From the NCBI RefSeq assembly GCF_014196845.1, contig NZ_JACIEM010000001.1, forward strand, positions 682,001 to 746,000: a stretch of DNA of 64,000 bases, given 5' to 3'. Positions 3,451 through 62,550 of the stretch are shown here, one piece after another. The number at the start of each line of letters is the position of its first letter. The first letter of the stretch is position 1. The translations under genes were made by a program, and so were the position numbers. This DNA is from Aurantimonas endophytica (GTDB lineage Bacteria; Pseudomonadota; Alphaproteobacteria; Rhizobiales; Rhizobiaceae). The notes under the pieces were generated by a model that made no database searches, had not been told where the DNA came from, and saw nothing but the letters and a program-made list of their open reading frames with translations.

Positions 3451-4641
3451 TCATGCCGCCCGATCCTGGCTCCCCTGCCCGCGCCGTCTCCCGGCGAGAG
3501 CGACATAGGCATCGACGAACCGGTCGAGCTCGGCTTCGCTCGTGTCGTAGCCGAAGCTGACGCGCAACGCACCCTCGTCCGCCGCGATGGCGAGGCCGCC
3601 GGCCACCATCGCCTCGATGACATGGCTGCGGCCGACCTTGCCCGAGGAGCAGGCCGAACCGGACGACACCGCGATGCCGGCGAGGTCGAGCGCCATCTGC
3701 GCCGTCTCGGCGCGAAGCCCCGGCAACGCCAGGCCAACGGTGTTCGGCAGCCGTTCGGCGCCGGCCCCCAGCACGGAGGCATCAGGCAATCGCTGCCGTA
3801 TCACCGCCTCCAGATGGTCGCGCAGGTCCCGCAGCCGATCGGGCTCGGCAGAGAGCCGTGCCATGGCGACCCGGATGGCGGTGCCCAGACTGACGATCGC
3901 CGTGACCGCTTCGGTGCCGGCCCGGCGGCCGCCTTCCTGGCCACCGCCGCGCAGCAGCGGCAGCGGCCGGGTCGATTCGTCCTGCAGGATCAATGCCCCG
4001 ACGCCCTTCAGGGCGCCCAGCTTATGGCCCGACAGGAGCAGCGCGTCGGCGCCTGTTTCGGCGATGTCCAAAGGAACCCGCCCGAGTGCCTGAACGGCAT
4101 CAACCACGAGCCGCACGTTCTGCCCGGCAAGGGCGGCGCGAATACCGTCCATCGGCTGCATCACGCCGGTTTCGGAATTGCCCAGCGTCAGAGCGAGCAG
4201 TCCAGGCCGATCCGCGTCGCACCGCGCCGCGAATTCGTTGACCGCGCCGAGATCGACGATGCCGTTCGCATCGACCGGAAGACGCGTCATGGCATCGGTT
4301 GGAAACTGCCCGCCTTCCCGGATGCAGGGATGATCGGTATCCAGCACGGCCAGTTGCGAAATCCGTGTATCGACCCCGTCGATCAGCCAATGCGGCGAGA
4401 GTGCCGTCGTTGCCGCCTCGGTGGCACTGCTGGTGAAGACGACATTCCGCGGCACCGCGCCGACCGCCTGTGCGACGGCCCGGCGCGAGTCCTCGACGAG
4501 CGCGCGTGCGCGCCGCCCTTCGACATGGACGGAAGACGGGTTTGCCGCATCCAGCGCCGCAATCGCGGCCGCGCGCGCTTCGGCCAGCAGCGGGGCGCCG
4601 GCATTGAAGTCGAGATAGAGGCGCGGCTCACCTGCGGTCAT
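3451..4641 (-). CDS. Cysteine desulfurase, NifS/IscS-like (class I), first gene of suf operon
   Basis: PLP-dependent enzyme taking sulfur from cysteine for Fe-S assembly; 396 residues. The PLP lysine is K207 in SGHKLGALKG, the ring-stacking histidine is H104 in DTDHPC, and the catalytic cysteine is C331 in SSGSACSSGK. The extended SSGSAC loop is that of the NifS/IscS group, not of SufS (which is normally found downstream of sufD, outside this window). It is the promoter-proximal gene of the suf cluster, with an Irr-type ICE box 109 bases and another palindrome 49 bases upstream of the ATG. The sequence starts MTAGEPRLYLDFNAGAPL, normal for the family. Confidence 0.93.
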   Translation of the reverse strand: MTAGEPRLYLDFNAGAPLLAEARAAAIAALDAANPSSVHVEGRRARALVEDSRRAVAQAVGAVPRNVVFTSSATEAATTALSPHWLIDGVDTRISQLAVLDTDHPCIREGGQFPTDAMTRLPVDANGIVDLGAVNEFAARCDADRPGLLALTLGNSETGVMQPMDGIRAALAGQNVRLVVDAVQALGRVPLDIAETGADALLLSGHKLGALKGVGALILQDESTRPLPLLRGGGQEGGRRAGTEAVTAIVSLGTAIRVAMARLSAEPDRLRDLRDHLEAVIRQRLPDASVLGAGAERLPNTVGLALPGLRAETAQMALDLAGIAVSSGSACSSGKVGRSHVIEAMVAGGLAIAADEGALRVSFGYDTSEAELDRFVDAYVALAGRRRGQGSQDRAA

Positions 4642-34670: not shown

Positions 34671-36152
34671 TCACCACCACTTGGCCGGCTCGAACCGGCC
34701 GGCCGCCTGCTCGATGACCGAACCGAGCGAGAACAGCGTTTCCTCGTCGAAAGGCCGGCCGATCAGCTGCAGCCCGAGCGGCAGCCCCTCCTCCGTCAGC
34801 CCGGCCGGCACCGCGATGCCGGGCAGGCCCGCCATGTTCACGGTGACGGTGAAGATGTCGTTCAGGTACATCTTGACCGGGTCGGACGCCATGTCCTGGT
34901 CGGCGATGCCGAAGGCCGCCGAGGGCGTCGCCGGCGTCAGCAGCGCGTCGATGCCGTCCGCATAGACCGTCTCGAAGTCGCGCTTGATCAGCGTCCGGAC
35001 CTTCTGGGCCCGCAGGTAGTAGGCGTCGTAATAGCCGGCCGAGAGGACGTAGGTGCCGATCATGATGCGGCGCTTGACCTCGCGGCCGAAGCCCTCGGCC
35101 CGCGTCCGCTCGTACATCTCCGTCAGGTCCTTGCCGGGCACCCGCAGGCCGTAGCGCACGCCGTCGTAGCGCGCGAGGTTGGACGAGGCTTCGGCCGGGG
35201 CGACGATGTAGTAGGCCGGCAGCGCGTATTTCGTGTGCGGCAGCGATACGTCGACGATCTCGGCGCCGGCGTCTTTCAGCCAGGCGATGCCCTGCTGCCA
35301 GAGCGCCTCGATCTCGCCGGGCATGCCGTCGACCCGGTACTCCTTCGGCACGCCGATCCGCAGCCCCTTCACCGAGCGGCCGATGGCGGCTTCGTAGTCC
35401 GGCACCGGCCGATCGACCGAGGTCGTATCCTTGGCGTCGACCGAGGCCATCGAGCGCAGCATGATGGCCGCGTCGCGGACGTCGCGAGCGATCGGGCCCG
35501 CCTGGTCGAGGGAGGAGGCAAAGGCGACGATTCCCCAGCGCGAGCAGCGCCCGTAGGTCGGCTTGATGCCGACCGTGCCGGTGAAGGCGGCCGGCTGGCG
35601 GATCGACCCGCCGGTGTCCGTGGCCGTGGCGCCTGCCGCGAGATGCGCCGCGACGGCGGCCGCCGAGCCGCCCGAAGAACCACCAGGCACGAGGTCGAGA
35701 TTGGAGCCCTTCCGGCGCCATGGGTTCTTCACCGGTCCGTAGCACGAACTCTCGTTGGACGAGCCCATGGCGAATTCGTCCATGTTAAGCTTGCCGAGCA
35801 TGACCGCGCCGTCCGCCCAGAGATTGGCCGTCACGGTGGATTCGTAGCGTGGCTCGAAGCCTTCGAGGATCCTGCTGCAGGCCTGCGTGTGGACGCCTTC
35901 CGTGGCGTAGAGATCCTTGACGCCGAGCGGGATGCCTTCGAGAGCGCCTGCCTCGCCTTTCGCCAGACGAGCGTCGGACTGCGCCGCCATCGCCATCGCC
36001 TTCTCGGGCGTCGGCATCACGTAGGCGTTGAGCTGACCGTTGGCGGCCTCGATAGCCGAGACATAGGCCTGGGTGAGTTCGGTCGCGGAGAACGCTTTCG
36101 CCTTCAGCTCGTCGCGTGCCTCGGCGATGGTCAGGGAGGTCAGATCGGTCAT
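34671..36152 (-). CDS. gatA: Glutamyl-tRNA(Gln) amidotransferase subunit A
   Basis: Amidase-signature subunit of GatCAB that releases ammonia from glutamine; 493 residues. The Ser-cisSer-Lys triad is visible: Lys in [12 protein letters not shown], cis-Ser in [15 protein letters not shown], nucleophile Ser in [15 protein letters not shown]. The C-terminus is GRFEPAKWW, standard for GatA. The start ATG overlaps the stop of the GNAT gene by four bases; the conserved N-terminus ([14 protein letters not shown]) supports it. Confidence 0.97.
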
Positions 36153-58006: not shown

Positions 58007-61477
<3,471 letters not shown>

Positions 61478-61612
61478 CCGGTTGCTCCTGGGTCATCGAG
61501 ACTACCCGGCGGCGTACCGAGGAGCCCGCTGCGGCATTGGTGTCAGCAGTCCTACCCGCTCAACCTTCGGCCGGTAAGAGTGGCGGCCAACCCGTCCCCA
61601 GGAAAGCGGCGA

Positions 61613-61699
61613 TCAGACGGCGTGGACGAGAAGCGTCAGGCTGAACACGAAACCGGACATGACGACCAGCGACAGGAGATCCTTGGCGAAATCGAGCAT
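61613..61699 (-). CDS. 28-residue single-span membrane protein under LexA-type control
   Basis: A short ORF with protein sequence MLDFAKDLLSLVVMSGFVFS, then LTLLVHAV. The N-terminal seven residues are charged and residues 8-25 are one hydrophobic span. A clear ribosome site (GAGAGGGAACGAAG) precedes the ATG at 61697-61699. Upstream lie an exact LexA box (61722-61736) and a TTGACA -35 hexamer. Size, single span and SOS control match the design of Caulobacter SidA (29 residues), an SOS-induced inhibitor of late division proteins; I see no residue-level evidence of homology. It could instead be a leader-like ORF for dnaE, 135 bases further on. Confidence 0.7.
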   Translation of the reverse strand: MLDFAKDLLSLVVMSGFVFSLTLLVHAV

Positions 61700-61721
61700 C
61701 TTCGTTCCCTCTCTGTTCTAT

Positions 61722-61736
61722 GTTCGTGATTTGTTC
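61722..61736 (-). promoter_or_regulatory. LexA (SOS) box, alphaproteobacterial type
   Basis: GTTC-GTGATTT-GTTC (GAAC-N7-GAAC on the minus strand) fits exactly the direct-repeat LexA consensus of alphaproteobacteria. A further GTTC sits three bases away (61715-61718). The box covers the expected -10 region of the promoter for the 28-residue protein and dnaE, the standard place for repression. Confidence 0.8.
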
Positions 61737-61757
61737 CTATCCTAGCGGAAATGTCAA
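61729..61757 (-). promoter_or_regulatory. Promoter for small membrane protein (and possibly dnaE)
   Basis: On the minus strand a perfect TTGACA (61752-61757) is followed after 17 bases by ACAAAT (61729-61734) as a plausible -10. Transcription would begin near 61722, giving a leader of about 23 bases to the small ORF. The LexA box overlaps the -10. Confidence 0.6.
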
Positions 61758-61854: not shown

Positions 61855-62550
61855 TCAGCCGAACCGGTGGGGCACGATCCGCCCCTGCTCGATCGTGATG
61901 GAGCGGTCCATCCGGGCAGCCAGCTCATGGTTGTGGGTCGCGATCAGTGCCGCGACCCCCGACTGGCGGACCAGCGCGGTGAGTGCGTCGAAGACGTAGC
62001 CCGCCGTCGTTGGATCGAGATTGCCGGTCGGCTCGTCAGCGAGCAGGACATGCGGCGAATTGGCAACCGCCCGGGCGATCGCCACGCGCTGCTGCTCGCC
62101 GCCGGAAAGTTCGGCGGGGCGGTGCAAGGCGCGCTTGCCGATCCGCATGTAGTCGAGGAGCTCCTGCGCCCGAAGCTGCGCGTCGCTGCGACCGAGGCCG
62201 AGAATCATCTGCGGCAGCATGACGTTCTCGATGGCTGAGAACTCCGGCAACAGGTGGTGGAACTGGTAGACGAAGCCGATCGACCGGCGCCGCATCTGGG
62301 TCCGACGATCATCGCCCAGACTGCCGCACGCCTCGCCACCGACATACACCTCGCCGGTGTCGGGCCGCTCGAGCAGGCCGGCAATGTGCAGGAGGGTCGA
62401 CTTGCCGGCGCCGGACGGCGCGACGAGCGCGATCATCTCGCCAGCGCGGACCTCCACCTCGGCGCCGTCGAGGATGGTGAGCTTGCCCTCGCCCTCCTTG
62501 AAATGCCGACCGACCGCTTCGAGCCGCAGCGCAACGTTGTCCGTCATCAT
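61855..62550 (-). CDS. lolD: Lipoprotein-releasing system ATPase LolD
   Basis: ABC ATPase powering release of outer-membrane lipoproteins from the inner membrane; 231 residues. Walker [14 protein letters not shown]-loop [12 protein letters not shown], signature [14 protein letters not shown], Walker [14 protein letters not shown], and the H-loop in IATHNHEL. Its start overlaps the lolC stop by four bases. Confidence 0.96.

Follow-up and report, generated by a model that had tools for sequence, protein, structure and literature searches.

A micropeptide gene under predicted LexA control upstream of dnaE in Aurantimonas endophytica, probably a diverged relative of Caulobacter SidA

Some bacteria answer DNA damage with SOS-induced division inhibitors, SulA being one of them. 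SulA is also named as a division inhibitor in an excerpt of PMC4211646, which describes the SOS division inhibitors known from different bacteria as unrelated. According to the same excerpt, SidA of Caulobacter, an inner-membrane protein of 29 residues, is induced in the SOS response, inhibits division and interacts with FtsW and FtsN, whereas DidA, another small single-span and damage-induced inhibitor acting on the same complex, has 71 residues, is SOS-independent and binds FtsN (PMC4211646). YneA, SosA and ChiZ are SOS-induced division inhibitors of other bacteria that were modelled, with low confidence, on the other side of FtsW transmembrane helix 7 (TM7) than SidA, as an excerpt of PMC13396833 reports. 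We liken these three proteins and SulA to the peptide described below by description only, not by sequence or locus. The present work concerns a 28-codon open reading frame (ORF) on the minus strand of a 64-kb stretch of Aurantimonas endophytica DNA (the window, meaning the whole stretch analysed). It probably represents the Aurantimonas member of a dnaE-linked, LexA-controlled family of single-span peptides of about 27-47 residues that includes Caulobacter SidA and serves as an SOS brake on division.

The ORF, MLDFAKDLLSLVVMSGFVFSLTLLVHAV, a SidA-type micropeptide gene by its genus conservation, codon statistics and profile matches, occupies 61613..61699 (minus strand, stop included) with its ATG at 61699. 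The 28 residues contain the one hydrophobic span that an earlier note made from the letters of the stretch had described, with a best 15-residue Kyte-Doolittle mean of 2.45. That note had further read a TTGACA, an exact GAAC-N7-GAAC LexA box over the expected -10 and a strong ribosome site, and all of these were recovered on the minus strand: TTGACA, from the sequence reading a putative -35 element, at 61752..61757; the box, putative LexA-type operator 1 (GAACAAATCACGAAC), at 61722..61736; and the ribosome-binding site GAGGG at 61707..61711, 7 nt ahead of the ATG. The box is real, but it is not single: a second exact box, putative LexA-type operator 2 (GAACAGAGAGGGAAC, 61704..61718, minus strand), lies 18 bp downstream, extends into the ribosome site and had been missed. 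A consensus promoter scan of the locus came back empty. Four GAAC-N7-GAAC boxes occur in the window against 1.5 expected, a number that 9 of 100 shuffles reach. With a count so near chance, a lone box is weak evidence, and conservation has to decide instead.

The ORF was found in all eight searched genomes of the window genus; the named records that carry it are seven of Aurantimonas and one of Fulvimarina. All eight genus genomes keep the ATG, the TTGAC and one LexA box or more; operator 1 is intact in seven genomes, operator 2 likewise in seven, and both boxes are present in six. In the genus alignment, the ratio of nonsynonymous to synonymous polymorphism (pN/pS) was 0.24 in frame, whereas the other five frames gave 0.63-2.9. 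With the start codon left out it was 0.25, a value that none of 500 column shuffles reached (shuffle mean 0.91), and variable columns numbered 11, 6 and 23 of 28 at the three codon positions. Since frame, start, TTGAC and boxes are conserved across the genus and pN/pS is of the protein type, ORF and operators are real; the ORF is a gene, and its amino-acid sequence, not its frame alone, is under selection. The opposite reading, a chance ORF beside chance operators, could point out that a single GAAC-N7-GAAC match is nothing unusual in 64 kb. Many genera, however, keep the frame, the start, the operators and the location, which has already refuted this reading, and we attach practically no weight to it.

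Our connection of this gene to SidA passed through the dnaE locus of other genomes. A search with HfaB, a holdfast protein, led to other lineages first; a search with a 29-residue ORF then reached the order of genome G282, in which 107 of 398 genomes match at E<=0.1. Judging in part from the SidA match, we take this order to be Caulobacterales and its family Caulobacteraceae. In G885, G994 and G974 a divergent nucleoside hydrolase (PF01156, E 5e-79 to 3e-78) comes first, followed by a LexA box, a 29-residue ORF and dnaE. The 29-residue ORF of G885 scored 72.3 bits against the NCBIfam model NF033228 (div_inhib_SidA; cut-off 35). At E<=10 this model matched all 14 Caulobacteraceae members, three of which, scored singly, gave 72.3, 30.9 and 22.2 bits; not all members are above the cut-off. 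In scans of three sets (14/14, 1/15 and 0/24) it picked up only Caulobacterales. For C. crescentus, the nucleoside hydrolase is CCNA_02005 (PMC3667746), sidA is CCNA_02004 (PMC10769358) and dnaE is CC1926 (PMC1839093), whereas recN carries the tags CC1983 and ccna_02062 (the latter in PMC12700426), a numbering offset of 79. By this offset, dnaE is either the immediate neighbour of sidA or no more than one or two genes away. The old tag of sidA is presumably CC1927.

Compared as profiles in hhalign, the family peptides (A3, from the GTDB family of the window, Rhizobiaceae) and the Caulobacteraceae peptides (A6) aligned without gaps over 19 columns with a probability of 93.9% and an E value of 1.6e-7. 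The family hidden Markov model (HMM) gave 14 SidA-type peptides a median of 8.45 bits (4.3-16.0), which was reached by 15 full and 27 block shuffles, out of 9800 each. In the reverse direction, the Caulobacteraceae HMM scored the window peptide at 12.2 bits and 24 family peptides at a median of 12.35, a score that block shuffles attained in 4 of 9600 cases. Among the best 30 Caulobacterales loci, 28 carry a box and 29 dnaE, and in 13 the boxes stand in an 18-bp tandem as in Aurantimonas.

Both Aurantimonas and the Caulobacterales thus have an SOS-boxed single-span micropeptide directly before dnaE, of 28 residues in the former and 29 in SidA. Their profiles align without gaps over the N-terminal 19 residues, with 42% identity, and share the pattern A[KR][DE]xLxLVxxxGFV; in all, 9 of the 28 residues of the window peptide are identical to the SidA of G885. 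What the window offers is a peptide of about 29 residues with one span, LexA-type boxes in the predicted promoter and a place directly upstream of dnaE. The loci differ on the other side: in Aurantimonas lolD stands directly upstream, whereas in Caulobacter-like genomes the nucleoside hydrolase lies in between. This upstream neighbour (231 aa, 61855..62550, minus strand) is presumably lolD, going by the family and the gene order. Judged by these sequence comparisons, the window peptide is probably a distant, diverged relative of SidA.

TisB is an SOS-controlled short single-span toxic peptide. An SOS-induced toxic membrane peptide of this kind, or of the kind of DinQ, which an excerpt of PMC3567139 describes as a toxic single transmembrane peptide, would lower the membrane potential and slow growth with no target in the divisome. 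Its general anatomy, a short single hydrophobic span under SOS control, is that of the window peptide. We nevertheless consider it unlikely in view of the link in sequence and locus to SidA, with its interaction partners FtsW and FtsN.

The spread of the gene within the family was underestimated at first. A single-sequence search matched 8 of 40 relatives, all of the genus, so that the ORF appeared genus-only; this reflected the limited sensitivity of the search and was overturned by profile searches. The family profile, built from 24 members which count among its own matches, matched in 137 of 199 family genomes (81 of 109 genera) at E<=0.05, a limit at which about 10 chance matches are expected, and in 95 of the 199 at E<=1e-4 by our own count from the match table. 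From 56 retrieved family loci we dropped seven weak matches that had no such ORF (L022, L027, L030-L032, L034, L035). A LexA box lies no more than 110 bp from the start in 46 of the remaining 49 (37 of 40 distinct loci when each place is counted once, 9 of the 49 being repeat fetches), and TTGAC no more than 110 bp upstream in 46 as well. Frame conservation in relatives, which the earlier note had proposed as a check, held in the genus and beyond it. Either dnaE or lolD is within the retrieved stretch at 40 of the 49 loci. The window peptide itself had no match in Pfam, PHROGs or NCBIfam and none in a plasmid search.

The gene for DNA polymerase III alpha, dnaE (1156 aa, 58007..61477, minus strand, with a PF07733 match), starts 135 bp downstream of the stop of the ORF, and a scan of the gap found no terminator-like site; a second PF07733 gene is on another contig. 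This layout would also suit a regulatory upstream ORF (uORF), a leader peptide whose translation tunes the SOS expression of dnaE while the peptide itself is inert, and a uORF role was suggested for small ORFs (sORFs) of 5' untranslated regions (5'-UTRs) in general by the authors of a Sinorhizobium meliloti study, in an excerpt of PMC10117765. The leader RNA, however, does not fold in any special way (its fold was equalled or bettered by 199 of 200 shuffles, and a z of +2.5 means less structure than in the shuffles), and it is the amino-acid sequence and not just the frame that selection acts on. In addition, the homologue SidA of Caulobacter acts as a division inhibitor, as the excerpt of PMC4211646 has it. 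Moreover, dnaE was not found in the retrieved stretch of about 3 kb at 24 of the 49 family loci, although peptide and LexA box were kept, and five of these places (L294-L298), followed for 5 to 7 kb downstream, gave no dnaE match either. The persistence of peptide and box where dnaE is not nearby weakens the leader peptide explanation, which we regard as quite improbable. For the same five places the LexA box is visible in L275, L278 and L023-L025, and lolD is upstream in L294, L295 and L298; the link to dnaE appears to have been lost or moved there while SOS control stayed.

S. meliloti belongs to the same GTDB family as Aurantimonas. In the excerpt of PMC10117765, which combines ribosome profiling and proteogenomics, an sORF25 is named in the dnaE1 5'-UTR of that species, a small ORF in the same kind of place as ours. 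By this position, sORF25 is perhaps of the same gene family as the window ORF. No paper linking SidA to rhizobia or to a dnaE leader was among the literature matches listed, which does not prove its absence in print; 'SidA' in PMC9638019 turned out to be the Sidak test, and PMC6473078 mentions neither SidA nor dnaE.

Beyond the family, a search of the Alphaproteobacteria with profile A3 gave 78 matches in 385 genomes at E<=0.5. These were mostly noise, with two of them beside dnaE (G591 and G542), and dnaE was therefore used as the anchor instead. DNA upstream of dnaE was taken from 99 genomes out of the 297 with a dnaE match in the 385-genome sample; the choice aimed at family spread, some families being present with two to four genomes, and included L105 and L106 because a match of the A3 profile adjoined dnaE. 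In the interval 150-450 bp ahead of dnaE, a forward LexA box was found in 20 of the 95 genomes with enough sequence, belonging to 13 families by our own count, compared with a reversed box in 3 of the 95. As a control, the next three 300-bp windows held forward boxes in 0/95, 1/93 and 0/92 genomes, and shuffled sequence gave a mean of 0.3 and at most 2. Behind all boxes but one (19/20) there is a short single-span ORF, which was the case at 99 of 1900 random positions; the remaining box (L146) is followed by a 29-residue ORF with a hydropathy of 1.35, the limit being 1.6. An N-terminal [WF]x[KRQ][DE] motif is common to many of the class-wide peptides. Profile A4 matched 37 of 40 (E<=0.2) and 3 of 4 (E<=1) genomes of two smaller orders and 53 of 96 (E<=0.5) of a third. 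From these three orders 64 loci were retrieved and 58 matched in a positional rescan; a box is present in 55 of the 58, and dnaE lies within the stretch in 55 as well, figures that are not fully independent because some of the loci seeded A4. In the order of G228 (L213-L242), many copies of the family are lengthened by an added N-terminal part, to 44-47 residues in total in L106, L110 and L122.

Several observations speak against assigning the window peptide to a family of SidA-like division brakes. Although homology to SidA is found at the profile level, the window peptide gave no match to the curated model NF033228 at E<=10, nor did any of the 24 scanned family members. Where all 14 Caulobacteraceae members have FVW, the window peptide has FVF, so that the contact surface may differ. 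No single face of the helix stands out as conserved (permutation p 0.13), and over 22 wider members pN/pS is only 0.55. Finally, the class-wide distribution is patchy, with 75 of 95 genomes lacking a forward box in the 150-450 bp interval, an interval set after the upstream regions had been inspected. Because it does not match NF033228, we regard the peptide as a diverged relative of SidA and not as an equivalog. The earlier note had left open whether a SidA-like peptide here would be independent or diverged; the boxed ORF that precedes dnaE in 20 of 95 genomes and the identity of the Caulobacterales ORF as NF033228 SidA favor divergence over independence. The note's interpretation as a LexA-controlled SidA-like peptide is supported and was right in substance. 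What the present work adds is the second operator, the family spread across the class, and the connection to SidA via the dnaE locus.

By analogy with SidA, we would expect repression by LexA in vivo, induction by DNA damage, a location in the membrane, a target among FtsW, FtsI and FtsN, and arrest of division. With LexA on both operators of the tandem, which cover the -10 and the beginning of the message, the gene would stay silent. Upon DNA damage, activated RecA would lead to cleavage of LexA, and the strong ribosome site would allow a burst of peptide. This may then insert into the inner membrane as one helix and keep FtsW, FtsI and FtsN, the late division complex, from acting until the damage has been repaired. 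For the wider picture we lean, with some hesitation, towards SidA being not peculiar to Caulobacter but the form that an ancient SOS checkpoint of the Alphaproteobacteria, encoded in the dnaE leader, takes in the Caulobacterales; a peptide that blocks the septum and the replicative polymerase may both come from a single LexA-controlled transcript; sORF25 would be its unrecognised version in rhizobial symbionts, and lineages without the dnaE link would have kept peptide and box.

If true, a dnaE-linked, LexA-controlled peptide in most of the sampled genera of the family and in several other families would amount to a widespread SOS checkpoint, and an orphan sORF of Sinorhizobium would gain a testable function. 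Bacteria of this order grow from the pole, which raises the question of how they use a brake directed at FtsW. It would also exemplify a class of genes that can escape notice because of size limits and family cut-offs.

Some further observations concern copies and boxes. Some family genomes have extra copies of the peptide (L299, at the same place as L020; L301; L303). No GAAC-N7-GAAC or GTTC-N7-GTTC was found within 300 bp of these three, and neither dnaE nor lolD was matched in the retrieved stretch; possibly they are SOS-independent paralogues. At five other family loci (L274, L277, L285, L289, L292) two LexA boxes are offset by 11 bp, with three GAAC in register, as compared with the 18-bp tandem of Aurantimonas. 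The other two boxes of the window read GTTC-N7-GTTC (3742-3756 and 34720-34734), have G+C-rich spacers and occur in about the number expected by chance. Just past the stop of the ORF, at 61592-61606, stands CTTTCCTGGGGACGG, and variants of it, CTTTCCTG or TTTTCTGGGGAT, are seen near the same place in other genomes of the genus.
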